This document shows positions 19,021 through 33,951 of a DNA stretch of 34,024 nucleotides, piece by piece. Below the pieces are notes generated by a model. That model was not told where the DNA came from, did no database searches, and was given only the letters and a program-made list of their open reading frames with translations. This DNA comes from an uncultured Synergistales bacterium (lineage in GTDB: Bacteria; Synergistota; Synergistia; Synergistales; Aminobacteriaceae): positions 159,925-193,948 of the forward strand of contig CAJOCL010000005.1 in the NCBI GenBank assembly GCA_905233565.1, in the 5' to 3' direction. Both the position numbers and the translations under genes were made by a program. Numbering within the stretch: the stretch's first letter is position 1; every line of letters starts with the position of its first letter.

Positions 19021-19860
19021 TTATGAAAGAGCGTACAAGAAATAAGTTACGGCCAGCAGATCGCCCGAACCTCCCGGACTTATCCATTTTGAAATAAAAT
19101 CATCATCAAGCCTTTTTATGTCATCAAGCCCGAAACCTGACGAAATCATTTTTTTTGCATTAATCATTACTTCCTGAGCCGTTAAAATATCATGGCGCGA
19201 AATTATATTAGTATCCTGAGCATGTGCCATTATGTGTATTAACGTCATGGCCATTGCGTCATTCATGCTGAAGCCGTCATCAAGATATTTCTTCAGTGCC
19301 GGAAGGGATATATTGCGGACAGCGGGATAACCGTCTTCAGCCTCTCCGCGAATCCCGGTAATTCCGTGTTCAATATAGACCCGTTCGCCCTTAGTGAGGG
19401 ACTCAGGGGATTTTGTCTTAACTTCCGCAAAGTCACGCTCACAAATTCCCCTGCACATTTCAGCGGCGGTTTTCATAACGTCACCGGCCTTAACTTCACG
19501 CCCTGAACCAGATAAATAACCTGAACACGCGCTTAACAGTCCAAGCGAGAATATTTCGCCCTTATGTGTGTTGACGCCTCCTGTTGCGGAAAACATTCTT
19601 TTTTCTGCCTCAATGCCGATTTTTCTGATGTACGGGAAAATTTCACGCGGTAAAAATTTCTTAACGCCCCCGACAATTCCCGCCTCCGCGAAATCCTCGA
19701 AACTTGAACGCAGCCCCGCAGCACTCTTCATGAAAGTAAAGAAGCCCATATCTCTATGAGCGCCCGAATTATTCCTGTCGACAAGTCCGGGCTTGGGAGT
19801 AACTGACACTTCAAGCAGCATTGCTTCAAGTGCCAGCGTCCCGATTTCCTCACTCGTCAT
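19021..19860 (-). CDS. citG: Triphosphoribosyl-dephospho-CoA synthase, CitG/MdcB family
   Basis: About 279 residues from the ATG at 19860. The family signature is clear: LEVSVTPKPGLVDRNNSGAHRDM near the N-terminus, TGGVNTHKGEIFSLGLL in the middle, the DTNIISRH block and SPGGSGDLLAVT near the end. The enzyme makes the prosthetic-group precursor of citrate lyase (CitG) or malonate decarboxylase (MdcB); no gene for either target is in the window, so the client enzyme is unknown. The start is unsure: four further in-frame ATG codons lie upstream (up to 19893) inside the acidic tail of the preceding RND gene. MTSEEIG at 19860 best matches the family N-terminus and gives an 11-nt overlap. It is co-oriented with the efflux genes, probably as a passenger. 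Confidence 0.88.
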   Translation of the reverse strand: MTSEEIGTLALEAMLLEVSVTPKPGLVDRNNSGAHRDMGFFTFMKSAAGLRSSFEDFAEAGIVGGVKKFLPREIFPYIRKIGIEAEKRMFSATGGVNTHKGEIFSLGLLSACSGYLSGSGREVKAGDVMKTAAEMCRGICERDFAEVKTKSPESLTKGERVYIEHGITGIRGEAEDGYPAVRNISLPALKKYLDDGFSMNDAMAMTLIHIMAHAQDTNIISRHDILTAQEVMINAKKMISSGFGLDDIKRLDDDFISKWISPGGSGDLLAVTYFLYALS

Positions 19861-22800
19861 TTTCGTATTCGCCGTCATTGTCATCGTCATCATTATCTTT
19901 TTCGCCGTATTCCCTGCCTCTTATCCTGTCCCACCAGAACCATAAACGCCATACGCATTTATACGCCGCAGGTATTGACAGCATGGCCAGCATTCCGCCT
20001 GCGATAAGCCCTCCGATTGCGACAACCGCTATAGGCCGCTTCATTTCGGAGCCTCTTCCCGTTGACAGCAGCGGCAAAAGTGAAACGACTGACGTAACTA
20101 CAGCCATGAGCAATGATTTGAATCTTACGTGGCAGGCTTCTTCAACAGCTTTGTAAGGGTGAGTGCCTTTCAGCCTCAAAACTTCAGCATAATCAACAAC
20201 GACAATTGCATTATTAACGACCATTCCGACAAGCATTATCATACCGATTAAGGCAAATATTGAAATATTGACTTCTGATATGAGCATCGCGGGAACAACG
20301 CCGATCGCTGCCATTGGAACGGTTGCAAGGATTATAATGCTGTATGTCCATGATTCAAGTATTGCCGCGACAACAAGATACGTAACTACAATGGCGATTA
20401 CTAACGTACGTATAAGCTCGATAAAGTTCTCGGCCATGTCTTCCTGTTCACCGCCGAAATTAATGCTCACCCCGTCAGGAAGCGTCATGCTGTTGACAAC
20501 TTCTCGCATTCTTGCATTCCCTTCGCCTGACGTTATATAACGTACCCTTCCCGTAATGACAACTGCCCTTTCGCGTTCAACCCTGCGGATTTCCGTAGGG
20601 CCGTCGCCCCAGACAATATCAGTCATTTCATCAAGCGGGACAAGTCCGTAAGTCGTCATTATCGGCAGTTCGTGAGCCGTGAATATATCGCTTGCCTTTT
20701 CGCGTGAAATTCTGGCCTTTATGTCGTACTCGTAACCTCCCTGACGGAACTTGCCGGCATCACGCCCGATTAAATAGCCCCTGACTATGCTTGAAAGGTC
20801 AGAGATATTCATTCCAAGCGGTGCAAGCCTCCAGCGTATCGGCTTAACCTGAAGTTCAGGCTTGCCCATTTCCATTTCGATTTTAAGATCCCTTACGCCC
20901 GGAACTCTGCGCCCCCTTGCGCGGATCTCTTCTGCAACATTATAAAGAACGTTCAAATCCTGACCCTTTACCTGAATTTCTATCGGGTTTCCGAATCCTG
21001 AACGTGTAGCGGCAATTGAGACCTCAACGCCCGGAAGCTCCGTAAGGTACGGCCTTATCTTGTCTGCAAGGTCTTCCGTTGACGGCCTGTCAGGGTCATC
21101 ATTCATGTATAACGCAACCTGTGCTTCGCTTATAGAGTTGCTTCTCATTGAACCTGCTACAGTTGATACTATGTTGCGTATATATTTTTTTTCAGGAATG
21201 CCGTTAATGTAAGCCTCGACTTTATCTATTAAATCTCCTGTCCTGTATATAGATGAGTTGTTGTCAAGCGTCAGGGTTATTCTTACTGTCCCGTCGTCCG
21301 TTGAAGGCGTGAACTGAGTACCTATGAAACCGCCGAGCTTCAAAGATCCGTAAGTTGCAAGTACCGTGAATATTATCGTAAGCATCGGAAAACGCATAGC
21401 AAGATGAAGGACTATAAAAAATGTATCCCTGAAGCCGTCAAATATCCAGTTCCACCAGCCTGTTAATATTTTGCCGATTAACGGAAGTTCCGTACTGCCT
21501 CCGGGCTGTTTCTTTATTCTCGCTGCAAGGCACGGAGTAACTGCCATTGTTACCCAGAGCGAAAACGCAGTAGCATAAACTATGGTTATTGCGTAAGGCT
21601 TTAAGAACTGCCCCGCTATTGTCGACATCAAAGCAACCGGCATGAAAACACCCAAGTTTGTTAAAACTCCTGCAAGTACGGACATTGAGATTTCAACGGT
21701 TCCTTCTTCGGCAGCAGCAAAAGGCTCATATCCCATATCCCTGAATCTGTATATATTCTGGATAATTAATATTGCGTTCATTACCAGCGTACCCATTGAA
21801 AGCGCAAGGCCGAGAGTACTCATAAGATTTAACGTGTACTTGTGAATCTGTAACGGTACGAACGTCGCAGCAAAAGCAACCGGCATTGAAAACGCAACAA
21901 TGAAAGTTGCCGAAAACCTTCCCAAGAATAAATATATTACAAGTGCCGTCAGAATTATACCGATTGCAGTATCACGGATTATGTTTTTAACGGCTGATTC
22001 AACGAATCCCGTATCATCATAAGTATATTCATACGTAAACTCAGGGTAACTTTTCATTGTCCTTGTCATGAGGCGTTTTATTAACCTTCCAGCCTCGACA
22101 ACGTCAGCATTTGAACGCGGGCTTATCCTGAGCTGAACGACCGGCTTGCCGTCAGCACGTGCCAAACTTCTCTGGTCTTCCTCGCCGTCAACAACTGTAC
22201 CAAGCATTGACAATCTTACGGGCTGGCCGTTAGGAGTGGGAATTAATATATCTTCGAGCTGTTCAACCTCGTTAAATTCTCCCATTAGCCTCAAAGATAC
22301 TTCGTCTTTTTTCTGTGTTACATAGCCTGAAGGAGTAGTCTGGTTATTAGCGGCTACAACGTTGCAGACCTGCATATAATTTATGCCGTAGTCGCTGAGT
22401 GCCGCAGGATCCAAGTTAATGTGAATTTCCCTGTCCCTTCCGCCCGTAACGTCAACGCGCCCTACACCCTGAACACGTGCAACAACAGGCTGTATTCTGT
22501 CCTCAATCATCTTTTTAGCCGTCTTCTCCTGAAGTTCTGAGCTGAAAGAGATTATCAGGAACGGCTGTGCACTTATGTCAAATTTGCTTGATACAGGCTC
22601 GTCAGCGTCATCAGGAAGATCCGGGACTTTAGCTTTTACTTTGTTATTAACGTCGACGAGTGCCAAGTCAGGATTTGTCCCGGCCTCCATTTCAACGGCT
22701 ACCATTGAAATTCCTTCAATTGAATACGTAGTTATTGATTTCAGGTTTTCAAGGTCTGCAAGAGCGTCCTCAAGAGGCTTGCTGATTAACTGTTCGATTT

Positions 22801-22975
22801 CGTTCGGGCCTGCTCCCGTGTAAGTTGTCCTGACAAGAACAAAGGGCAGCTCAACATCTGGGTACAGGGTAACGCCGAGAGTGAAATAGCTTGAAATCCC
22901 AAGAAGTATCCATATGACAACAGAACACCCGGTAAAGACCGGGTGCGTAATACAAAATTTTATAAATCCTCTCAT
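19850..22975 (-). CDS. RND-family efflux permease (AcrB/SwrC-like)
   Basis: 1041 residues, normal for the HAE1-type RND permeases: an N-terminal helix, a long periplasmic loop beginning LYPDVELPFVLVRTTYTGAGP, five helices, a second periplasmic loop and five more helices. The TM4 segment reads LSMGTLVMNAILIIQN; where proton-driven relatives have Asp-Asp (AcrB 407/408), this protein has Met399-Asn400. In TM10 GMVVNNAIVVVDY, the Lys of AcrB (940) is Asn921. There is no other acidic residue in TM4. The tail (residues about 1020-1041) is a run of Asp, Asn and Glu. The adaptor gene ends 6 nt upstream. No outer-membrane channel gene is present, so another TolC-like protein must serve the pump. Function is inferred from the family; the missing charge relay makes ordinary proton coupling doubtful. 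Confidence 0.95.
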   Translation of the reverse strand: MRGFIKFCITHPVFTGCSVVIWILLGISSYFTLGVTLYPDVELPFVLVRTTYTGAGPNEIEQLISKPLEDALADLENLKSITTYSIEGISMVAVEMEAGTNPDLALVDVNNKVKAKVPDLPDDADEPVSSKFDISAQPFLIISFSSELQEKTAKKMIEDRIQPVVARVQGVGRVDVTGGRDREIHINLDPAALSDYGINYMQVCNVVAANNQTTPSGYVTQKKDEVSLRLMGEFNEVEQLEDILIPTPNGQPVRLSMLGTVVDGEEDQRSLARADGKPVVQLRISPRSNADVVEAGRLIKRLMTRTMKSYPEFTYEYTYDDTGFVESAVKNIIRDTAIGIILTALVIYLFLGRFSATFIVAFSMPVAFAATFVPLQIHKYTLNLMSTLGLALSMGTLVMNAILIIQNIYRFRDMGYEPFAAAEEGTVEISMSVLAGVLTNLGVFMPVALMSTIAGQFLKPYAITIVYATAFSLWVTMAVTPCLAARIKKQPGGSTELPLIGKILTGWWNWIFDGFRDTFFIVLHLAMRFPMLTIIFTVLATYGSLKLGGFIGTQFTPSTDDGTVRITLTLDNNSSIYRTGDLIDKVEAYINGIPEKKYIRNIVSTVAGSMRSNSISEAQVALYMNDDPDRPSTEDLADKIRPYLTELPGVEVSIAATRSGFGNPIEIQVKGQDLNVLYNVAEEIRARGRRVPGVRDLKIEMEMGKPELQVKPIRWRLAPLGMNISDLSSIVRGYLIGRDAGKFRQGGYEYDIKARISREKASDIFTAHELPIMTTYGLVPLDEMTDIVWGDGPTEIRRVERERAVVITGRVRYITSGEGNARMREVVNSMTLPDGVSINFGGEQEDMAENFIELIRTLVIAIVVTYLVVAAILESWTYSIIILATVPMAAIGVVPAMLISEVNISIFALIGMIMLVGMVVNNAIVVVDYAEVLRLKGTHPYKAVEEACHVRFKSLLMAVVTSVVSLLPLLSTGRGSEMKRPIAVVAIGGLIAGGMLAMLSIPAAYKCVWRLWFWWDRIRGREYGEKDNDDDDNDGEYENDE

Positions 22976-22981
22976 GAAATA

Positions 22982-24091
22982 TTAACCCTCGTTAGAATCG
23001 TCATTATCATTTTTTCCGGCAATTCCTAAATTCTTAACGATCCCTACACCGTCATAAAGTACGCGGTTACCGCTTACTATCAACGAATCGCCCGGCTTCA
23101 ATCCTGAAGTTACGACTACTTTTCCTTCACGCCCTTCACCTGTCGTTATGACCGTGAGCTTTGCCCTGTTGCCGTCAGCAACGTAAACTGACTGTTTATT
23201 ACCGCGATAAATAACGACATTTGACGGGATTACAACAACATTCTGCTGGCTGCTGACCTTGAAACGCCCTTCAACATAAGTTCCCGGCAAAATCCCCGAA
23301 TTTTCAGGAAGTCCGACGATTACTGGATAAAGTCCTGAACCCTTCTGAGCTTCCGGGCTTCTGCGTTTTACCCAGCCGTTGTAAGTCTGGCCGTCAACCC
23401 TTATTTCTACTGTAGTGTTTTCATTGATTTTCATGATGTCTTTTTTCGACACCATTAACTCCGCTTCCATTTGTTTCGGGTCAACGATCGAGAGCAGAAC
23501 CGCCCCTGCCTCTGCAACTTCGCCCGGTTCAACGTTCCTTGCTGAGACTATCCCGTTTATGCTTGCTTTCAGGCTTGTACGCTGCAGCGATGACTGAGTC
23601 GATTTCAAGGCCGCTTCTGCCGTCCTCATGCGCGAATATGCCGCATCAACTTCTGATTTCGATATTCCGCCCTTTGCGTGTAACTGCTTTAACCTGTTGT
23701 AATTCAAAACTGCCTCATCATATGCCGTCTTTCCTGACTGTACCTGTGCGCCCCTTGCAGCTACCTGAAGGGTAATGACTGTCTGACCCGCTTTAACCGG
23801 GCTTCCTATGTCGACATTGACAGTCCTGACGATTTCGCGTTCATATGTAGTTATGTTCTGTGTATGTACGCTCTTTGCCTGACCGTAATAACTTCTCCAT
23901 GTATCCCAATCCGTTGTCTTCAAAGTCTCCGTCTCAACCGGATAAATTGTTTCCGTCTGGGTTTCCAGAGATCTCAGGTTAGCTTCAGCCTGTGAAAGTC
24001 TCGCCCTCACCTGAGTACTGACCAGAAAACCAAGCCCGATAACAATAAATACCCATAATAATATCCTTATACGCGTAAAAAATTTCAGCAT
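22982..24091 (-). CDS. RND efflux periplasmic adaptor (membrane fusion protein)
   Basis: 369 residues from the ATG at 24091 (AGAGGTG about 10 nt upstream); a TTG two codons earlier is less well placed. One N-terminal transmembrane helix (residues about 8-28) anchors it in the inner membrane. The order is typical of adaptors: a split lipoyl domain (VNVDIGSPVKAGQTVITL, then ASINGIVSARNVEPGEVAEAG), an alpha-hairpin (about residues 115-175), a beta-barrel with GSGLYPVIVGLPENS and a membrane-proximal domain. The tail is rich in Asp and Asn, like that of the permease. It precedes the permease by 6 nt in one operon. A fairly good promoter stands upstream at 24152-24179. The exported compound is unknown. 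Confidence 0.92.
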   Translation of the reverse strand: MLKFFTRIRILLWVFIVIGLGFLVSTQVRARLSQAEANLRSLETQTETIYPVETETLKTTDWDTWRSYYGQAKSVHTQNITTYEREIVRTVNVDIGSPVKAGQTVITLQVAARGAQVQSGKTAYDEAVLNYNRLKQLHAKGGISKSEVDAAYSRMRTAEAALKSTQSSLQRTSLKASINGIVSARNVEPGEVAEAGAVLLSIVDPKQMEAELMVSKKDIMKINENTTVEIRVDGQTYNGWVKRRSPEAQKGSGLYPVIVGLPENSGILPGTYVEGRFKVSSQQNVVVIPSNVVIYRGNKQSVYVADGNRAKLTVITTGEGREGKVVVTSGLKPGDSLIVSGNRVLYDGVGIVKNLGIAGKNDNDDSNEG

Positions 24092-24151
24092 AAACAAACA
24101 TCACCTCTAATAAAATCTGATAAAAGATTTCTGCACCTTTTGCGAAAAAGC

Positions 24152-24241: not shown

Positions 24242-25915
24242 TTATTCGTAATGCGTCATTCCTGATAAACCTGGTTTGTAGAAAACAGATACTGACGTCA
24301 TATCGTCAAACTGTTTTCCGCCATCGTAAAATTTAGTTACAGCGTCCTTGATTAAATTCAATGTTTCCGCGCTGTCGTTTAATTTCACAGAAGAAAGCAG
24401 ATTTTTCAGACGTTCCTCCCCAAAGAAAATTCTATCCGGGTTTACTGCTTCAGTAATTCCGTCAGTATAAAGCAGAAGCCCTTCACCCGAAGAAAGTTTC
24501 AGCTCCTCGTTTTCTATGCCAACGTCCTTAAAGAATCCTAATGCTGTGCCGTGCTTTAATGCAATATATTCTGCGCCGTTTCTAGTTATTCTCGCTGGGG
24601 GATTATGCCCGGCGTTCGCAAAAGTAATTTCTCCGGTTTCAATGTCTATAATCATTGCGAACAATGTAACAAAGATTCTTTCAGGATTTTCAGCGCATAA
24701 CTCGTTATTTATCAGATTTAACGCTTTCGCAGGGTCTAGAGTATGCTTGATATATGCACTCAGCATGGACTTAACCATCGCCATAAACAGTGCCGCCGTT
24801 ATACCTTTGCCAGAAACATCGCCGATTGCAATAAAATATTTCATGTCATCCAGTTTGCAGCACTCGTATAAATCTCCTCCGACTTCTTGGGCTGGCTGCA
24901 TGAATGCCGAGACGTCAATATTAGCTGATTTGTCGTAAAACTCTGCTTTACACATTCCGTATTGAATCTGCCTGGCTATATTCATCTGGGTGAGTGTTCT
25001 CTCGCGTTCTGCAATTATCAGCTTGAGATCCTTCAGATAGGAATGTATTTTCAGGGACATATCTACAAATGAATCAACAATAAGCCTTATTTCCTTTATT
25101 GATGGAGTTATCGAATAAAGCGAAGGTGGTTTTATTTTGTCGGTAAATTCACTATTATTGTCATTATTGCCCAATAACGTTACAAAATTTACCATACTCT
25201 TAGATACAGCTTCAAGAGGAAGAGTAATTTTTTTGACCATTATGCGCCGCACAAAAAAATAAAATATGAAGAATACCGAAATTATTAAAGCTAATATGAA
25301 GCCCACGAAATCTAATATGTCCTTCAAAATAAGCTTCTTGAAAAAACTGATAGTGAATATAAACTGCAATTCACCGTCCTCGTCATAAAATCCCTCAGAG
25401 CATAAAAAAGACGGTAATCCTATATTATTATAACCTATAGATGTTACAACTTCTCCGGGTGCAAGTTCCTTCAGTGAGTCAAAATCATTTATAACTTCAA
25501 TTGAGCCGGGCTGATAATCAAAAGGGTTATACTCGCCCAAATACACGAGTTTATCGCCGCTCACGGCACGTAAATACGCTGAATTTACCCATTGATACGA
25601 TGAAAACATCTTCGAAAGATATTCATTTATTTTCTTGTACGATTCGTTTTCTTCAATATGCCTGAATCTTTCAGCTTTCATGAGATTATCTGAAACGTCG
25701 ATTCCCGCATATTCACGAAGCATTAACTTTTTGAGCTTCAAAATTTCGTCAATGTCAAAATTATTGTGGATCGTGTTTGCTAAAATATGTGTCCCCATAT
25801 CAAAGAAAGCTATTTCAGCAGCAATATACGTTATAGTGGTTATAATCAGCGTAATCAATACTATGATTGCGCATAAGACTATTAAAAATTTTTTCAGTAC
25901 ATTGTGAAGACTCAT
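24242..25915 (-). CDS. Membrane-anchored PP2C (SpoIIE/RsbU-type) phosphatase with extracytoplasmic sensor
   Basis: 557 residues. A transmembrane helix (residues about 9-34) and a second one (about 208-232) flank an extracytoplasmic domain of about 175 residues with no motif I recognise. A HAMP-like linker and a coiled stretch lead to the PP2C domain (residues about 320-550). Metal-binding motifs are complete: EVGGDLYECC, IAIGDVSGKGITAALFMA, LLLYTDGITEA and FDDMTS. SpoIIE/RsbU phosphatases dephosphorylate a STAS protein and so trip a partner switch; one STAS gene lies at the head of the same cluster. The gene follows the ligase-ATPase gene after 142 nt that contain a perfect hairpin. AAGGTC lies before the ATG. 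Confidence 0.92.
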   Translation of the reverse strand: MSLHNVLKKFLIVLCAIIVLITLIITTITYIAAEIAFFDMGTHILANTIHNNFDIDEILKLKKLMLREYAGIDVSDNLMKAERFRHIEENESYKKINEYLSKMFSSYQWVNSAYLRAVSGDKLVYLGEYNPFDYQPGSIEVINDFDSLKELAPGEVVTSIGYNNIGLPSFLCSEGFYDEDGELQFIFTISFFKKLILKDILDFVGFILALIISVFFIFYFFVRRIMVKKITLPLEAVSKSMVNFVTLLGNNDNNSEFTDKIKPPSLYSITPSIKEIRLIVDSFVDMSLKIHSYLKDLKLIIAERERTLTQMNIARQIQYGMCKAEFYDKSANIDVSAFMQPAQEVGGDLYECCKLDDMKYFIAIGDVSGKGITAALFMAMVKSMLSAYIKHTLDPAKALNLINNELCAENPERIFVTLFAMIIDIETGEITFANAGHNPPARITRNGAEYIALKHGTALGFFKDVGIENEELKLSSGEGLLLYTDGITEAVNPDRIFFGEERLKNLLSSVKLNDSAETLNLIKDAVTKFYDGGKQFDDMTSVSVFYKPGLSGMTHYE

Positions 25916-25959
25916 ATAATCGACCTTAAATCATATTCAAATACAATTACAAGCTGAAA

Positions 25960-25992
25960 CCAGAGTCATGTCGAAAATTTTCCTGACTCTGG
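25960..25992 (-). other. Perfect hairpin between the ligase and phosphatase genes
   Basis: CCAGAGTCA (25960-25968) and TGACTCTGG (25984-25992) form a 9-bp perfect inverted repeat around a 15-nt spacer that itself contains GAAAATTTTC. There is no U-tract on the minus strand (next bases TTTCAGC), so it is more like a processing, stability or attenuation element than a full terminator. Confidence 0.5.
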
Positions 25993-26057
25993 CTACAGCA
26001 TTCTTAATCGTGAAATTTCAGTTCGAGCAAACTAAACAGCTACAAGCCCGTTTACGT

Positions 26058-28055
26058 TTATAGCAGCCTCTCATGAGACGCAAGAAAACTCTTTATGTCA
26101 AAGTCAGAATCAAACAGGAAATCTAAGTTGTAATTATAATTTCCGTTTGAATCCGTAGTTATAGATATATCGTCAGCAGCAAATGCAATGATTTTCGCAC
26201 TGTCTGAAGTTTTGCGCTGCTTCTCGAAGTCGTAAGGCTGTCCTGAATCCTTGAATACCAACCTGAAGAAATCTCTGTAGCACACAAGATCTAAATGAAT
26301 ATCCCCGACATCGTCAAAGGCATTAATGATCCTTTCAACGAGCATCTCTTCAGAAGCCAGCTTGACGCGTCTTGCATGTTTGGCATCAAGTCCGAACTGC
26401 AGCGCATACCCTTCGATCATATATATTAAAGGCTCTATTGCGTATGATGTATTCTTGATAGAGACAGAACTCACTGTGAATCCCTGCATTAATTCGCCTT
26501 CAAGTTCACGCATTCTGAGTTTGATCAGCATGTCAGTATGAAGTTTGCGCTGGTCGACTTTGCCTGTTGCGTTCAACGGGAATTTATCGAACACGAAGAA
26601 ATAAGCGGGTACTTTGAACGAGCCGACAGTTTCCTTCAGGTGTTTGCGGAGTGCTTCCTCATCAAATTCTGCTCCTTCTTTAAGGGTGATGCAGGCACCG
26701 AGATTTTCACCGTATAATCTGTCCTTGAAACCGAAAACCCTGCATTCTTTCACGCTGTCTAGTGCGATTGCCTGAGCCTCGATTTCACCGGGAGTGATAT
26801 TTTCTCCGCCCTTGATGATTATGTCCTTGATTCTGCCGGCGATTCTGACATTGCCGTCCTGTGTAATAACGCCTAAGTCGCCTGTATGGAACCAGCCGTC
26901 CTTGTCGATTGCCTGCTTTTCCGGAGGGAGCTTATAGTATCCGTTTTTAATATGAAAACCGCGGGTTACAAGTTCTCCGATTTCACCTTCAGGAAGCAGC
27001 CGGTCTTTTTCGTCGCAGATACCGATCTCAACGCCTGGAATTTTTCTGCCTATCGTGTTATAACGCACCGAAATAGGGTCTTCTGGTCTGACCGTTATGA
27101 AGCCACTAGAAGTCTCAGTCATTCCGAACACGTTTAAGAACGTCGCATGATTCAGAGCGGCTTCGAATCTCGTAAACTGGATCGGGCTTGTATAACTTCC
27201 TGCAATGACGCACATTTTCACATACGGTGCGCATTGTTCAGTAGCTTTTTTGCTGTCTATGATTGACTGATAGACCGCTGCGACTGTCCATAAATCAGTG
27301 ATTTTTTCACGCTCTACTATATCTCCTACGCAGTCAGCTTTTATTTTGTCTGGGAAATAAACAGTTCCGCCAGAGAACAAATAAATGCACGACCCGGTCA
27401 AACCAAACACATGGAACAAGATAAGAGCAACGCAAACTTTATCGCCTCGTATTGACTTGAATGCATTCGCGTAATTTAATAACGTGTTAATCATCGAATA
27501 CTGCGATGTCAAAACAGCCTTCGGGAAAGCCGTTGTTCCTGATGTGTAAATTATATAAGCGTCGTCTTTAACGTCCCATTTTGAGTCGTCGATTTCAACA
27601 GGTTCAACCTTCGCGAAATCCGTCTCAAGATATGAAAAGATTTTTTCTTCGGACAGCTTAAAAACTCGCGATAAAATTCCGGCTTCATCAGATTTGCCTT
27701 TCGTATCATGAGTTGCACCGAACAAAACGTATTTACTGTCAGAAAACGTTACAAGCGGAGCAACATCGTTGATCGTATAATTTGAGTTAAGGCAGACAGC
27801 AACACCGCCAGCCCTGATTATTCCGTAATATGTCGTCAGCCATTCAGGAGACGCAGTTCCCCACAAGGCAACGTGATCATTTTTCTTTACACCCTGGTGA
27901 ATCAAAAACGATGCTGTTGCGTCTATTTTCGCCATCAAATCCGAGTAAGTCAGCCTCTTCTCACCCATGACTATAGCGTCTTTATCAGGGTGGAGTTTTG
28001 TCTGCTCAGAAAGGATCTGGTAATAATTCTTATTCGTAAAAATCGCTTCGTGCAA
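26058..28055 (-). CDS. AMP-forming acyl ligase fused to a degenerate HATPase (RsbW-like) domain
   Basis: 665 residues from a TTG at 28055, chosen because GGAGGA lies 7 nt upstream and the preceding stop ends 1 nt before. Residues about 1-510 are an acyl-CoA synthetase of the ANL superfamily: IIYTSGTTAFPKAVLTS, NVFGMTETSSGF, GWFHTGDLG, IAGRIKDIIIKGGENITP and the catalytic Lys in NATGKVDQRKL. It would activate a carboxylate to acyl-AMP and then acyl-CoA. Residues about 530-665 add a module that looks like an RsbW/SpoIIAB ATPase: a helix ASEEMLVERIINAF and a DSGQPYD G1-like box. The N-box Asn is missing and no G2 GLGL motif follows, so ATP binding is doubtful. It may act as a STAS-binding regulatory domain. 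Acyl substrate unknown. Confidence 0.9.
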   Translation of the reverse strand: MHEAIFTNKNYYQILSEQTKLHPDKDAIVMGEKRLTYSDLMAKIDATASFLIHQGVKKNDHVALWGTASPEWLTTYYGIIRAGGVAVCLNSNYTINDVAPLVTFSDSKYVLFGATHDTKGKSDEAGILSRVFKLSEEKIFSYLETDFAKVEPVEIDDSKWDVKDDAYIIYTSGTTAFPKAVLTSQYSMINTLLNYANAFKSIRGDKVCVALILFHVFGLTGSCIYLFSGGTVYFPDKIKADCVGDIVEREKITDLWTVAAVYQSIIDSKKATEQCAPYVKMCVIAGSYTSPIQFTRFEAALNHATFLNVFGMTETSSGFITVRPEDPISVRYNTIGRKIPGVEIGICDEKDRLLPEGEIGELVTRGFHIKNGYYKLPPEKQAIDKDGWFHTGDLGVITQDGNVRIAGRIKDIIIKGGENITPGEIEAQAIALDSVKECRVFGFKDRLYGENLGACITLKEGAEFDEEALRKHLKETVGSFKVPAYFFVFDKFPLNATGKVDQRKLHTDMLIKLRMRELEGELMQGFTVSSVSIKNTSYAIEPLIYMIEGYALQFGLDAKHARRVKLASEEMLVERIINAFDDVGDIHLDLVCYRDFFRLVFKDSGQPYDFEKQRKTSDSAKIIAFAADDISITTDSNGNYNYNLDFLFDSDFDIKSFLASHERLL

Positions 28056-28056
28056 T

Positions 28057-29742
28057 TTAGATTCCTCCTCTACCAAAATTTATAATTAGATTGTTCATTC
28101 CCAGAATATTTATATATCGGAAACTTTTTGCAAGACCGCTTACAAGCCTTAAGCCGATATTTAACACGGATTCCTTCGGTTTGTGAATCTCAAGCCACTT
28201 GGCAGGATCAAAAGCTCTGCCGTTGTCCCTTATACGCAAAATCAACCCGCCTTCATTTTCTGCAAGCCTGACACTAATTCCGAGCGATTTTTGAGACTCA
28301 TTATATTGAAAAATGTTTTTGCACATTTCCTCCAGAGCAAGCGCGGCATACATAGAAATTCTTTGAACGCAGGTTCGATGCTTTGTTATATCATCGCCTC
28401 GTTCTATACTGCACTCATAGAGAATTTTGCTGTCAGAGCCGGCTGGTTTCTTCCCTAGTGCGCACAGGGCAATCAAAATCACCGTCAGCGTTTCCGAACA
28501 CAGGAAAGCAAGCCACACACTTTGTGAGCCTGCAAAATATTTCAGAGTATAAGCGCACGGCACAAAGAATAAAATGTACTCACACACTGGAATCGTATAG
28601 GCCAGCCACCAAATGCCCATCGCCTGAATATATTTGTGAAACGCCCTGATACCCGTATAAAACGGGAAGAATAATATAAACATTCTGAGCGAAGTACTCC
28701 CGAAGTCGGCAATCTGGGCATTTTCCGTGAATATACCGAAAAGAGGACGAGCCAGCAGCAAGCAGAAAAGCATAACAACGCCCCCTATAACAAGCGCACA
28801 TTTTGTGAAAATTGAGAACAGCACTCTCAACGCTTTGTTATCACCCTCGCCATAAAACACTGACCCCATTGTGAACGTTGTAGTCGCAACAGCATCGGCA
28901 ATGGACGAGAAAATTTGATTCATTACGGAAATGACTGCATAGACAGCAACAAATTCAAGGGAAATCTTCAGCAGGAAATGATTCACGAATGAAATCTGCA
29001 GAATAATTAAGAGCCTTTCAATTCCAGAAGGAAATCCGCGCTTGAACAAAACAGCCAGAAGATTTAAGTCCTTCAGCGAAAACATAAAACGAAATACGGG
29101 GCGTTTTCTGATGAAGGCCGCAAGAGTTACAATTATCACTGCCCAGTAGCAGGCCGATGAAGCCAGACCGATTCCGAAAAGTCCGTTCTGAAATACGAAA
29201 ACAGCTGACAAATCTCCTAGAATATTCACAGCCAGCATTGCAGATATTGCCGAAATCAAGACTTTGACTCGTCCCTCCATGTACAACAAGAACGTAACAA
29301 GAGGGATAGCAAGCAGAGGCACTATTCCCAAAGATAAGCCGGACATATAATTTCGGGTCTCAGTGTACAAAAACTTATTATTCGGTTCTGCTCCGAGTAA
29401 AACTGCGATATTACTGCCGAAAACTGACAGAGCAAAAGTCATCAATGCCCCGATCGTAACAACACATGCCAAAGCAACGGATAATATTCTAAATGCCCGA
29501 TCGATTTTATCTGCTCCCAGATATTCCGAATACAAATTTTGAATGCCTGCGGCAAAAAATACTGTTACCATTGCCGCAGACATAATTACCGGCATATTAA
29601 GCTGATACGCCGACATAGAAATTTCTCCAAAATATCGCCCGATAAAAAATCCGTCGATTATCGTCCCCAAGAACATAGCAATCCCGCCGGCGAGCATGGA
29701 GAAAAATGACTTCAAAAAGACAACGGTGAAGAGTCTTTTCAT
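28057..29742 (-). CDS. MATE-family transporter fused to an RsbW-like HATPase domain
   Basis: 561 residues. Residues about 1-430 form a 12-helix MATE/MOP-superfamily carrier starting MKRLFTVVFLKSFFSMLAGG with the family's GTIIDGFFIGRYFG turn; such proteins use ion gradients to export drugs, lipids or oligosaccharides. Residues about 445-561 are a cytoplasmic GHKL ATPase of the SpoIIAB/RsbW type: N box ALEEMCKNIFQYN with Glu and Asn in place, G1 IRDNGRAFDP and G2 NIGLRLVSGLA. All nucleotide-binding motifs look intact, so it could be a working Ser kinase for the STAS protein. Its ATG overlaps the debranching-enzyme stop by 4 nt (ATGA), and the next gene begins 1 nt after its stop. The fusion is unusual. 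Confidence 0.92.
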   Translation of the reverse strand: MKRLFTVVFLKSFFSMLAGGIAMFLGTIIDGFFIGRYFGEISMSAYQLNMPVIMSAAMVTVFFAAGIQNLYSEYLGADKIDRAFRILSVALACVVTIGALMTFALSVFGSNIAVLLGAEPNNKFLYTETRNYMSGLSLGIVPLLAIPLVTFLLYMEGRVKVLISAISAMLAVNILGDLSAVFVFQNGLFGIGLASSACYWAVIIVTLAAFIRKRPVFRFMFSLKDLNLLAVLFKRGFPSGIERLLIILQISFVNHFLLKISLEFVAVYAVISVMNQIFSSIADAVATTTFTMGSVFYGEGDNKALRVLFSIFTKCALVIGGVVMLFCLLLARPLFGIFTENAQIADFGSTSLRMFILFFPFYTGIRAFHKYIQAMGIWWLAYTIPVCEYILFFVPCAYTLKYFAGSQSVWLAFLCSETLTVILIALCALGKKPAGSDSKILYECSIERGDDITKHRTCVQRISMYAALALEEMCKNIFQYNESQKSLGISVRLAENEGGLILRIRDNGRAFDPAKWLEIHKPKESVLNIGLRLVSGLAKSFRYINILGMNNLIINFGRGGI

Positions 29743-31796
29743 TTCCCTATAAGCACCATAACACTGCGAGGCATTAGAGTAGCGTAACCGTTGATAATCT
29801 CACCTTTTCTTGTGCCTTTTTCGTCTCCGCTGTAGGCGACAAGACTCCATTTCATGCCGTCCGGGATAATCGGAAGCTGCATCGTGTGTTCTTCCCAGTG
29901 CGAATTGACAGCACAATATATGAAGCAGTCTTCTTTTGTCCCGAAATCTGCTTTAGGTTCGCTGTACATTACGGCAAATGTCAACAGCGGCGTACGCATA
30001 TCAAGCTGCCAGGCTTTTTCACCGTGCCATGACATTTCGGGATAGCCGGAGGAATTATACCCCATGCTGTAACTCGTTGTCCTGAAAACCGGGTGTTCTT
30101 TCCTGAAGGCGATTAACGTCCTGAAATATTCAAAAACGTCTTCATAATCTTTGAGCCTGTCCCAGTTCAGCCAGCCGATCGGGTTATCCTGCATATAAGC
30201 ATTTCCGTTACCTTTCTGGGAATTTGCGAACTCGTCGCCCATAAAGAACATAGGAACACCCCTGCTCATAAGCACGTAAGAAATAAGATTCTTAATTTGT
30301 CTGTGCCTCAGAGCGTTCACTTCGGGGTCATTTGTTTCACCTTCTATGCCGCAGTTCCAACTGACATGGTCAACTGAAAACGGGTTTACCATTCCGACAT
30401 CATCAGCATGAGAGCCGTTATATGCAACCAGATCATACAGCGTCAAGCCATCGTGGCAGTCAGCGTAATTGATTGCGCGGTCAGGGCTTCCGAATAAATC
30501 AGGCGAGCCTGAGAAAGAGTCTATTACTTCTTGAGGATTTTGCGGGAACGCTTTTGCTAATCTCCTGTACGTGTCCCTTGTGCGGGGATTCCAATCCGCC
30601 CAGTTGACCGGAAGTTTCCCTATAGTGTATAAACCTCCAAAGTCGAATCCTTCAGAAATAAACGATGTCGAAGAAAGAATGGGATCATTTTCCAGAGCAT
30701 CAACAAGAGGAGGACTCACAACGGGTCTTCCGTCCTGTCCGCGTGTGAAAACGGGTGCTTCGTCAACTCTGAAAACATCAACATGATAATCCGAAACCCA
30801 ATAGCGCAGAGAGTCAAGAATGAATGACCTGACAACGGGGTTATTACAGTTAAGGGTATTTTTGCAGCCGCTGTAGTCTAAATAATTTCCGTCTTCCCCC
30901 ATGATGTACCATGTTCTGTTGTCTATACCCTTAAATGAGAGAGTCGGACCTTCATCGCCAAATTCTGCAGTATGATTGAACACTATATCAAGAATTACTG
31001 CAATTCCGGCTTTGTGTAACTCCTTCACGAGATTCTTCATTTCATCGGCGGCCAGTCCCATGCTCCCGGTTGCTGAGAAACCTGTTTTCGGCGAGAAATA
31101 ATTATAGGTCATGTATCCCCAGTAATTACAGGCAGGCGCGGGAAGTTCCGGGACAAATTCGTCAAATTCAAATATCGGCAGAAATTCTACGGCGTTGATG
31201 CCCAGCTTTTTCAGGTGGGGAATCTTCTCAATGAAGCCGGCATAAGTCCCACCGTATTTTACTCCGCTGGAAGGATCCATTGTGAAGCCCCTCAAATGAG
31301 CCTCGTAAATTATGAGGTCTTTGAACGGTATGCAGAGCGGTTTATCACCCTCCCAGTTAAAATCCTCTCTGATAATTCGCCCTCTGCACTGAAAATTACT
31401 GTCCGGGTAAGTTTTCTTGTTGAATACGTCTCTGCCGGAAACTAATTTTGCGTACGGATCGAGCAGAACTTTCGACTTGTCAAATCTATAACCCTTCGAG
31501 CGATCCGTCGGGCCGTCAAAACGATAGCCGTATTCCACTTTTTCCCAGTCTAAATCGAACACCATCATAGCGAAAACGCTTCCGGTTCTGAACTCATCAT
31601 CAAATGGGATTTCAACAAAAGGCTCGTCTGCTCCGATATTGTATAAAACGAGCGAGCAGGAATAAGCATCTTTCGAATAAACGGAGAAGTTTACGGCGTT
31701 ATCGCCGACCACAGTTGCACCGAAAGGAAGGAGTCTTCCGCGTCTGTATCTAATCCCGTTGATTTCATGGGATATAAATTCATCAATTCGTCTCAT
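29739..31796 (-). CDS. GH13 glycogen-debranching-type enzyme (GlgX/isoamylase-like)
   Basis: 685 residues. An N-terminal carbohydrate-binding-like beta domain (residues about 1-150: RRGRLLPFGATVVGDNAVNFSVYSK) leads into the GH13 barrel. Visible regions are ILDIVFNHTAEFGDEGP, the nucleophile Asp in DVFRVDEAPVF (about residue 343), the acid-base Glu in FISEGFDFGG (about 381) and the third Asp in YADCHDGLTLYDL (about 448). These enzymes cleave alpha-1,6 branches in glycogen or limit dextrins. No other glycogen gene is nearby; instead it lies between the acyltransferase (3-nt gap) and the MATE fusion (4-nt overlap), so it probably serves the same pathway. No signal peptide is seen, so it is cytoplasmic. 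The ATG has GAGGT 5 nt upstream. Confidence 0.92.
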   Translation of the reverse strand: MRRIDEFISHEINGIRYRRGRLLPFGATVVGDNAVNFSVYSKDAYSCSLVLYNIGADEPFVEIPFDDEFRTGSVFAMMVFDLDWEKVEYGYRFDGPTDRSKGYRFDKSKVLLDPYAKLVSGRDVFNKKTYPDSNFQCRGRIIREDFNWEGDKPLCIPFKDLIIYEAHLRGFTMDPSSGVKYGGTYAGFIEKIPHLKKLGINAVEFLPIFEFDEFVPELPAPACNYWGYMTYNYFSPKTGFSATGSMGLAADEMKNLVKELHKAGIAVILDIVFNHTAEFGDEGPTLSFKGIDNRTWYIMGEDGNYLDYSGCKNTLNCNNPVVRSFILDSLRYWVSDYHVDVFRVDEAPVFTRGQDGRPVVSPPLVDALENDPILSSTSFISEGFDFGGLYTIGKLPVNWADWNPRTRDTYRRLAKAFPQNPQEVIDSFSGSPDLFGSPDRAINYADCHDGLTLYDLVAYNGSHADDVGMVNPFSVDHVSWNCGIEGETNDPEVNALRHRQIKNLISYVLMSRGVPMFFMGDEFANSQKGNGNAYMQDNPIGWLNWDRLKDYEDVFEYFRTLIAFRKEHPVFRTTSYSMGYNSSGYPEMSWHGEKAWQLDMRTPLLTFAVMYSEPKADFGTKEDCFIYCAVNSHWEEHTMQLPIIPDGMKWSLVAYSGDEKGTRKGEIINGYATLMPRSVMVLIGK

Positions 31797-31799
31797 TGT

Positions 31800-33011
31800 T
31801 TACCTCATTTCATTAGTCATCAGTGTATCTTTTGGCAGAAAATACGGCTTCTTCGTTGTAACCGCACTGCTTATGCCTTCGTCTTTGAGAGCCTTCGAGA
31901 ATGCTTCCATGAATGCACCAGTCCCGTGTCCCATCATTGGGCAGAAACGCATTTTTCCGTTTAAGTCGAATGCTATGAACTCAAGAGTCGAATGAATGAC
32001 GATAACGAGATCTTGAATATGGCTTGTAACTTCTCCGAAGTCAATTTTTCCGAAGTAGATAGGCATAACCGTCACAGGCCGGCCGAATTTTTCCGGAGCA
32101 GTCATGAAATTATAAATTCTTTCTTTGGTCAGCTGTCCTGAAAGCATTTCCTGAACCTTCTGGGCAAGTTCAGAAGCAGGACGTTCATTGAGTTCTTTCT
32201 TGTCAACTGATACATAACTGATGAGACCGCATGTAAAAGGGTCTTTCTCGACATTCAGCATTTTTCGGACGTTGTTAGTCTGAGTAATGAGTCCTACTAT
32301 TGGAAGCTCTTCATCAGGTTTCATGCGATATACGGCTTTTGCTGCCAGAAGGAACATAAACGGCATCGGCTTGATATGATTTTTCTTGCATAAAGCAATA
32401 AACTCGCTTGAATCTGCCTGAACTTCGCCGTATGAAAGCGTGTCATCAGCATCGGGAGCGAAGTCTTCAACGCTGCAGGATTTATCAGGAAGACCGCTCA
32501 GCGGCATATCACGATAAGTACCAGTGGCTTCAGCAAAAACATCGCGGTCAAGATTTTCGCCGTCACCTCTGAAATCTCGCGCTAATTCTTCAGCCTTTGC
32601 TGGATTTCCCGTGTAAATGTCCCAGTAAAACATCGCCAGCAGCCTGATAATCATCAACATTCCGCCTCCATCAAATAAAGAATGAGAAGCGGACATAAAG
32701 ACAGTGTCGCCGTAAAAACTTACTACAAACGGGTATACATCATTGTCCAATCCTGAAATTGCGATAACTTCTTTGGACTCATAGACTTTTGCGGGGATAT
32801 TGCATTCTTCAAGGAAAAACTCACTGCCTTCTTTGACAAGTCTGCTTTTAAGAACCGGCCAGACATAATACACCAGATCCAAAGCAGCCTGCAAAGCTGA
32901 TTTATCTACGTTGTGATCGAAGGTTAATTTGAATGTTGAATGAATGCTTTCATTGCGGTCAGCGTCCCAGAAAACAGAGGTACAGCCTACAAATTTTCTC
33001 CTTGTTTTCAT
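31800..33011 (-). CDS. HxxxDG acyltransferase (condensation-domain / alcohol acyltransferase-like)
   Basis: 403 residues. The key motif is SASHSLFDGGG, with catalytic His110 and Asp114, the HxxxDG signature of the CoA-dependent acyltransferase and NRPS condensation superfamily. The N-terminal half begins with a strand-rich segment (FDHNVDKSALQAALDLVYYVWP), the C-terminal half has KIDFGEVTSH where the family's second structural motif (DFG-like) stands. It is a stand-alone single domain without a carrier protein. It would transfer an acyl group from a thioester to an alcohol or amine acceptor. In its operon an acyl ligase could provide the donor and a debranching enzyme the sugar; that is inference. 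It begins 7 nt after the STAS gene and ends 3 nt before the debranching gene. Confidence 0.8.
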   Translation of the reverse strand: MKTRRKFVGCTSVFWDADRNESIHSTFKLTFDHNVDKSALQAALDLVYYVWPVLKSRLVKEGSEFFLEECNIPAKVYESKEVIAISGLDNDVYPFVVSFYGDTVFMSASHSLFDGGGMLMIIRLLAMFYWDIYTGNPAKAEELARDFRGDGENLDRDVFAEATGTYRDMPLSGLPDKSCSVEDFAPDADDTLSYGEVQADSSEFIALCKKNHIKPMPFMFLLAAKAVYRMKPDEELPIVGLITQTNNVRKMLNVEKDPFTCGLISYVSVDKKELNERPASELAQKVQEMLSGQLTKERIYNFMTAPEKFGRPVTVMPIYFGKIDFGEVTSHIQDLVIVIHSTLEFIAFDLNGKMRFCPMMGHGTGAFMEAFSKALKDEGISSAVTTKKPYFLPKDTLMTNEMR

Positions 33012-33018
33012 CTTGGGA

Positions 33019-33318
33019 TTACTCCAGATTGAGGAATTTTATGAAACCGACAACCTCAAAGATTTTCTTGATTTCGTCAGAGACGTTCCGGATTACCATT
33101 TTCCCCTGCTTGTTCATAGTTTCCTGAGTTGAGAGAATTACACGCAGACCGGCGGAAGAGATATAATTCAGTTCAGAAAAATCAAGCACAAGGTAGTCAA
33201 TTCCCGTCAGTGACTCACTCAAGGAAGCCTCAAGATTTGGAGATGTTATAGTGTCAAGGTCACCGATGAGTTTAACAGTTAGTTTCGTACCATCCTGTTG
33301 TTTCTTAATGTCAAGCAT
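33019..33318 (-). CDS. STAS-domain anti-anti-sigma-factor-like protein (SpoIIAA/RsbV type)
   Basis: 99 residues from the ATG at 33318, which has a strong AAGGAGGA 9 nt upstream; the frame is open for 12 more codons but they precede that ribosome-binding site. It is a single STAS domain: KLTVKLIGDLDTITSPNLE, LVLDFSELNYISSAGLRV with the conserved phosphorylatable Ser55, and a C-terminal helix. In the sporulation and general-stress switches this protein is phosphorylated by an RsbW/SpoIIAB kinase and dephosphorylated by a PP2C phosphatase. Both activities are encoded downstream in this cluster, but no sigma factor is. It is the first gene, under the promoter at 33361, and so should be the most abundant product of the operon. 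Confidence 0.92.
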   Translation of the reverse strand: MLDIKKQQDGTKLTVKLIGDLDTITSPNLEASLSESLTGIDYLVLDFSELNYISSAGLRVILSTQETMNKQGKMVIRNVSDEIKKIFEVVGFIKFLNLE

Positions 33319-33492: not shown

Positions 33493-33951
33493 TTAGGCGT
33501 AAAGTTTTTTTGCCTGTGAAATAAAATATCTCGTATACTCAGGAATATAACTTCCGCTTCTTGTTGCGGCCACAAAATCGCTGAATACTCCGTCATCTCC
33601 GAAACTGTATGTATCAATTTCAGGCTTCGGGGAATGCCAGCGCAAATGGCTCTCAAATATGAATGATATTCCCCAGCCGTTTTCAGTCAGCGAAATAACG
33701 GCAGGCATATTATTCGTAGTTATCGAGTTAGAAAGAGGGATATTGCTTTCTTTCAGGTAATGCCGCGAGATCTGGCCCGTTCTCTGTTCAGGCGACAGCA
33801 AAATTAATCTCTCTTCCCTGAGTGCTGAAAGATTCAATCTTCCGCTGACCGCATAATTTTTGACTTTGTGATTACGGCATGTGCATATCAAAAGCTCTTC
33901 AGAAGCCAAAGTTTCATATTCAATATGGGTTGAATAACTGTTATTAAAAAT
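33493..33951 (-). pseudogene. LysR-family regulator remnant (C-terminal effector domain only)
   Basis: The frame reads back only to a TAA at 33952-33954. The readable part (about 152 residues) resembles the second half of a LysR substrate-binding domain: HIEYETLASEELLIC, then LILLSPEQRTGQISRHYL, MPAVISLTENGWGISFIFESHL and the ending YIPEYTRYFISQAKKLYA. The helix-turn-helix and the first half of the effector domain are absent, and the 70 nt upstream look like promoter DNA rather than lost coding sequence. A TTG at 33909 is the only candidate start. It ends 104 nt upstream of the operator-like site of the STAS operon and may be what is left of that operon's former regulator. It is most likely a truncated gene, though expression of a fragment cannot be excluded. 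Confidence 0.75.

Follow-up and report, generated by a model that had tools for sequence, protein, structure and literature searches.

Textbook accounts present partner switches as regulators of sigma factors, and for the few that have other targets the output is mostly unknown. The Bacillus systems SpoIIAA/SpoIIAB/SpoIIE and RsbV/RsbW/RsbU are built on a STAS protein with a phospho-serine, a kinase of the HATPase fold and a SpoIIE-type PP2C phosphatase. In the parts of the literature drawn on here, partner switches whose target is unknown or is not a sigma factor include Bordetella BtrUVW, Vibrio SypA/SypE and Rhodobacter RbaVW (PMC8256260, PMC10120452, PMC3999984), and a STAS domain is also described in SLC26/SulP transporters (PMC8256260). 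Here we describe a six-gene cluster from an uncultured Synergistales bacterium that encodes a STAS protein and a PP2C phosphatase and carries kinase-fold domains on an exporter and an acyl ligase. The cluster lies in a 34,024-nucleotide (nt) stretch of DNA, hereafter the window (assembly GCA_905233565.1, contig CAJOCL010000005.1, positions 159,925 to 193,948), which is the terminal part of contig C5 (position 193948 of 193948) in a genome of 2.02 Mb. Our favoured reading, to which we give slightly better than an even chance, is that the cluster encodes a partner-switching module acting on the proteins of its own operon, not on a sigma factor.

Gene content of the cluster

All six genes are on the minus strand. 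In transcription order, with lengths in amino acids (aa), they are:

33019 to 33318, minus strand, single-domain STAS protein, 99 aa (PF01740, 1.3e-16; TIGR00377 above cut-off)
31800 to 33011, minus strand, HxxxDG acyltransferase or stand-alone condensation-like protein, 403 aa (assigned by motif and fold)
29739 to 31796, minus strand, GH13 GlgX-like or glycogen-debranching-like enzyme, 685 aa (PF00128 and PF02922; TIGR02100 at 508 bits, below its cut-off of 641)
28057 to 29742, minus strand, MATE exporter (aa 1-425) with a C-terminal HATPase_c_2 domain (about aa 445-558, nt about 28069-28410; MatE 9.8e-21, HATPase_c_2 2e-7, above the Pfam cut-off)
26058 to 28076, minus strand, AMP-forming acyl ligase (aa 1-515; AMP-binding 3.8e-70) with a C-terminal domain of predicted SpoIIAB/RsbW fold (about aa 540-655)
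24242 to 25915, minus strand, membrane SpoIIE-type PP2C phosphatase (PF07228, 3.9e-48; matches to SpoIIE in the PDB)

The coordinates confirm the six genes, their order and the gaps of 7, 3, -4 and 142 nt given in the initial annotation. Its 1-nt gap before the ligase gene holds for a TTG start at 28055; the longest open reading frame (ORF), which begins at the TTG at 28076, instead shares 20 nt with the MATE gene. The first five genes are closely spaced, and the PP2C gene follows 142 nt further on.

Both the STAS phospho-serine and the metal-binding aspartates of a SpoIIE-type PP2C, as found in partner switches, are present in the cluster. The predicted phospho-acceptor of the STAS protein, Ser55, lies within Y-I-S-S-A-G-L-R and aligns with Ser58 of SpoIIAA. 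A serine is kept at this position in 23/23 STAS domains from the window and related loci. The phosphatase has an N-terminal transmembrane segment, an extracytoplasmic segment and a further transmembrane segment (assigned by eye), followed by a catalytic domain at about aa 345-544, and its metal-binding Asp348, Asp366, Asp485 and Asp538 are conserved. Two further SpoIIE-domain fragments with in-frame stops, probably a decayed PP2C gene, are found at G000:C26:757-1092.

Kinase-fold domains fused to the exporter and the ligase

The MATE-borne domain retains the N, G1 and G2 boxes of RsbW/SpoIIAB-type HATPases. E471/E472, N476, D506 and G530 are all present in the window protein, and among 66 MATE-HATPase proteins E471/E472 is conserved in 66/66, the N-box N476 in 50/66, the G1 residue D506 in 63/66 and the G2 residue G530 in 63/66. 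Judged from these residues, the MATE-borne HATPase would be the likeliest operon-encoded kinase or anchor for the STAS protein. At position 508, the G1-box glycine is replaced by cysteine in 44/66 family members, giving an RDDC-type box in place of DxG; this cysteine is possibly redox or metal related.

The ligase-borne domain scores 16.6 bits against HATPase_c_2, under the Pfam cut-off of 27.4, and was therefore examined by an independent profile and by structure comparison. A seven-sequence profile has RsbW as its sole match in the PDB (E=0.014), and the top 19 PDB matches found by Foldseek for an AlphaFold2 model (mean predicted local distance difference test score 74) are all SpoIIAB, RsbW or UsfX. 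The model thus indicates that the domain has the SpoIIAB/RsbW fold. In 7/7 sequences, the N-box asparagine is replaced by glutamate and the G2 box is missing, making it unlikely that the domain is a kinase; it is probably a pseudokinase form that only binds STAS. The initial annotation of kinase-like domains fused to enzymes therefore stands for the fold of both proteins, and the degenerate ATP boxes speak against kinase activity in the ligase.

The named relatives of the ligase gene come from rumen Synergistaceae and uncultured Fretibacterium genomes, which places the host, a gut bacterium, in the Fretibacterium group at genus level. The fusion has orthologues in six further genomes from this genus (57-77% over the C-terminal domain), mostly set among genes for a carboxylesterase-like protein, an HxxxDG protein and a glycosyltransferase-GH3 protein. 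In one relative (L039; related loci are cited by L numbers), the ligase-HATPase gene is near two tandem STAS genes. A scan of genome contigs that used the ligase fusion as query recovers three true orthologues, all from Synergistaceae/Fretibacterium, the other matches being generic ligases. A fusion of Glycosyltransferase 2 with a GH3 acyl-adenylating enzyme adjoins the ligase-HATPase gene at L045:12000-14564 (Pfam matches in L045), with similar ORFs in L040 and L041.

In the mechanism that we favour, the MATE-borne HATPase would phosphorylate the STAS protein at Ser55, and an outside signal would activate the membrane PP2C and lead to STAS dephosphorylation. Unphosphorylated STAS could then bind the fused domains of the MATE exporter and the ligase and alter the activity of both together, so that acyl activation, the transfer step of the HxxxDG acyltransferase and export would be coupled. 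STAS binding, phosphorylation, the direction of control and the product are parts of this scheme that we infer.

Recurrence of the design and linkage to PP2C genes

A search with a profile of the C-terminal region finds MATE-HATPase fusions throughout the window's genus and in further Synergistota, in about 17/291 Clostridia genomes (confirmed fusions counted) and in 3/296 Spirochaetota genomes. Across about 65 MATE-HATPase neighbourhoods, STAS and PP2C genes are recurrent and the cargo changes. Gene sets with the same logic are present in Synergistota (L243, L237, L231, L240, L245), Clostridia (L190-L193, L195, L201-L206) and Spirochaetota (L258). The closest match to the whole operon is L258, in which genes with overlapping ends encode a HATPase, a STAS-APH protein, a MATE-HATPase, an AMP ligase, a dCache-HAMP-PP2C protein and a second HATPase.

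Large nonribosomal peptide synthetase (NRPS)-like genes directly adjoin the MATE-HATPase gene in L196, L197, L198, L200, L203 and L243 (Clostridia and one Synergistota genome); those of L203 and L243, examined in full, encode two-module enzymes with a reductase domain at the end. Other cargo includes GH3 acyl-adenylating enzymes (L204, L206), a GNAT protein (L201) and a formyltransferase-like protein (L245). The L020 locus encodes three HxxxDG proteins, a MATE-HATPase and a STAS-ligase fusion, with an RND-type permease gene 2 nt further on, and a second STAS-ligase fusion occurs in L250, beside the NRPS cluster of L243. STAS domains are also fused to APH- or choline-kinase-like proteins near MATE-HATPase genes (L190:12702-14309, L191:9952-11541, L188:7818-9026, L258:495-1700 and L030:1395-2618, the APH part of the last being assigned from length and context alone), and in L190 and L191 APH-type phosphotransferases are fused to both STAS and HATPase. 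An EamA-HATPase fusion at L025:11233-13029 (G000:C16) lies in a cluster with genes for STAS, an LPG_synthase_C-like protein, PP2C and RsbW; its counterpart in L240 consists of separate ORFs, and the LPG_synthase_C Pfam match comes from L240.

This variety of fusions, namely STAS-ligase (L020, L250), STAS-APH-HATPase (L190, L191) and EamA-HATPase (L025), favours control of the operon's own proteins. The transporter could alternatively be the input, with MATE conformation or flux controlling the attached kinase and setting STAS phosphorylation, and STAS acting on the ligase or on a target elsewhere. The largely conserved ATP-binding residues of the MATE-borne domain fit this arrangement, as do the PP2C-HATPase and STAS-APH-HATPase proteins, in which the kinase domain is carried by non-exporter proteins. 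We nevertheless regard it as rather unlikely, since the cluster already has a membrane PP2C that brings an extracytoplasmic segment of its own (dCache-HAMP in one relative) and since STAS or HATPase domains are also fused to ligases, which resemble outputs.

MATE-HATPase genes are enriched beside PP2C genes. In 25 genomes, a SpoIIE-type PP2C gene lies within 5 kb of 12/40 MATE-HATPase genes, against 1/126 ordinary MATE genes in the same genomes, the latter being the best-scoring matches among those listed (Fisher p=1e-7); random placement would give 0.45 of 40. Several of the 25 genomes are fragmented, which lowers the counts for both MATE classes, and two of the Clostridia genomes in the sample (G218 and G373) look like close relatives.

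HATPase-STAS contacts could also serve as a scaffold that assembles the ligase, acyltransferase and exporter into a metabolon under little or no phospho-control. The degenerate ligase-borne domain and the direct fusion of STAS to ligases in L020 and L250 are in line with such a role. The strict conservation of the STAS phospho-serine, the retained metal ligands of the phosphatase and the repeated PP2C linkage argue for a working phospho-switch, and we consider a pure scaffold improbable.

The initial annotation had proposed a search for the same gene order across phyla. The design does recur, in Synergistota, Clostridia and Spirochaetota, and its inspected neighbourhoods lack sigma genes, while the exact six-gene order was found in the window genome only, in a phylum search with the HxxxDG protein and in the ligase-fusion contig scan. 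Since the relatives of the HxxxDG protein from the phylum search are distant (up to 30%) and all belong to the same genus, conservation of the six-gene order was rejected. An order confined to one genome is what a chance neighbourhood would produce, in which separate housekeeping genes share an operon without a common function. The overlapping genes, the enrichment beside PP2C genes and the similar tight operon in another phylum (L258) speak against coincidence, leaving it a very slight probability.

Several observations weigh against the switch that we favour. No PP2C gene lies within 5 kb of 28/40 MATE-HATPase genes, so these MATE-HATPases would have to find partners in trans or serve another purpose. 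In most relatives, the ligase-HATPase gene sits in a cluster without STAS, MATE or PP2C genes. A separate RsbW-like kinase is also encoded in L201, L202, L205, L245 and L258, and the kinase of the switch may be this protein and not the fused domain; such a stand-alone kinase gene is linked in some loci, not in the window locus, and the window genome has one elsewhere, in the STAS-PP2C-RsbW cluster of L025. Finally, the gap between the ligase and PP2C genes contains a strong hairpin:

25958 to 25994, minus strand, hairpin in the 142-nt gap (gap RNA fold -37 kcal/mol, z -3.4)

This hairpin has no U-run and was not reported by the terminator scan. It is a possible transcript boundary, and the PP2C gene need not share the upstream transcript. 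The single operon of the initial annotation is thus borne out in the tight spacing of its first five genes, and the PP2C gene is perhaps transcribed separately.

Taken across phyla, the evidence leaves us evenly divided on a broader proposal: a switch class, present in Synergistota, Clostridia and Spirochaetota at the least, whose exporters and acyl- or amino-acid-activating enzymes have acquired anti-sigma-kinase-fold and STAS domains. STAS phosphorylation would directly gate specialised-metabolite synthesis and export, and the ligase would carry a pseudokinase form.

Absence of a linked sigma factor

The absence of a sigma factor from the cluster, claimed from the window DNA, extends to its relatives: in 18 genomes, the 10 kb on either side of such clusters are free of sigma-70 genes, the nearest being about 13 kb away (G218). 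An always-linked sigma gene, which would have spoken against the proposed design, was thus not found in these genomes. The window genome encodes three sigma-70 proteins, namely RpoD, a FliA/WhiG type beside a cheD-like gene and a small one passing the superfamily cut-off only, and has no SigB/SigF/SigG-type sigma above family cut-offs.

An ordinary sigma-directed partner switch, with the sigma factor encoded elsewhere and the enzyme fusions incidental, has a precedent in those partner switches whose sigma gene is located far away (PMC3999984). The mere three sigma-70 proteins of the window genome and the sigma-free surroundings (10 kb) of every cluster in the 18 genomes make this explanation highly improbable, and a sigma-factor output was judged unlikely for want of a linked sigma gene in the 18 genomes and of a SigB/SigF-type sigma in the window genome.

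Acyltransferase, GH13 enzyme and possible product

The HxxxDG protein has no match in Pfam or NCBIfam. It aligns with NRPS condensation domains (hhalign E=3e-7), its AlphaFold2 model matches the CoA-dependent acyltransferase or condensation fold (E 1e-14 to 1e-12), and H110 and D114 are invariant in 11 relatives. The GH13 enzyme appears by eye to have its triad residues, and its gene is seen at the window locus only, among the loci compared. The pathway probably makes an acyl conjugate, for instance an N-acyl amide or an acyl saccharide, and the GH13 gene could indicate an acylated saccharide instead of an N-acyl amide.

Neighbouring genes

A pair of RND efflux genes follows the PP2C gene after 144 nt on the same strand:

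22982 to 24097, minus strand, RND efflux adaptor (family matches for the pair TIGR01730 and NF033617)
19850 to 22975, minus strand, RND efflux permease

The pair (19850 to 24097) is possibly part of the export route. Homologous RND pairs adjoin the related ligase loci L020, L040, L041 and L045, and the presence of RND pumps next to most related ligase loci is consistent with export in a two-membrane cell.

At the edge of the contig, 33493 to 33909, just before the STAS gene, encodes the C-terminal part of an apparent LysR-type regulator (by eye); the piece has no intact start and is truncated or a remnant. Further away, 3743 to 6103 encodes what by eye is a papain-like (C1A) secreted protease, its tail rich in Asn and Ser and its C terminus bearing a sorting-type signal of hydrophobic and basic residues.

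Comparison with known systems

Partner switches without a sigma target are already known, so the logic itself is not new. No MATE-HATPase or ligase-HATPase partner switch was found in the open-licence papers searched, and the view of the initial annotation that no system of this design has been described narrows to these direct fusions. What appears new, within that literature, is the anti-sigma-kinase fold placed directly on a MATE exporter and an acyl ligase, together with its cross-phylum PP2C and STAS linkage. As the output proteins themselves bear the kinase-fold domain, the target can be read from the sequence and put to the test. The fusions suggest a little-studied on/off control of small-molecule making and export. 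If the favoured reading is true, exporters and NRPS-like or acyl-conjugate pathways of gut bacteria, including clusters beside reductase-ended NRPSs, would be under direct phospho-control, and many 'anti-sigma factor' annotations in such bacteria would read differently.

The gut N-acyl amide (fatty acid amide, FAA) pathway OaaA/OaaACP/OaaC (PMC13142362) resembles the window cluster in pairing a stand-alone AMP ligase with a stand-alone HxxxD condensation protein, the window ligase bearing in addition a HATPase domain. The window cluster adds STAS, PP2C, MATE-HATPase and GH13 genes, and there is no acyl carrier protein (ACP) among its ORFs; an ACP is present in L120 (Faecalibacterium), whose ligase-ACP-condensation trio includes a relative of the window HxxxDG protein at about 21% identity. 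The window protein reads SASHSLFDGG and departs from the FAA-clade motif (D/H)HxxxDS/A; glycine occupies the S/A position in 17% of FAA domains (PMC13142362).

The cluster shares with the Bacillus systems the STAS protein with its phospho-serine, the HATPase kinase fold and the SpoIIE-type PP2C. It differs from them in having no sigma factor and in carrying its kinase-fold domains on the exporter and the ligase, the ligase-borne one being degenerate. With BtrUVW, SypA/SypE and RbaVW it has in common a STAS/kinase/phosphatase logic without a known sigma target, whereas exporter or acyl-ligase fusions are not described for these systems in the portions of the sources used here. SLC26/SulP transporters, as presented in the same portions, likewise carry a partner-switch-type domain on a membrane transporter; there a STAS domain sits on an anion transporter, whereas here an anti-sigma-kinase fold sits on a MATE exporter and a phosphatase is linked to it.

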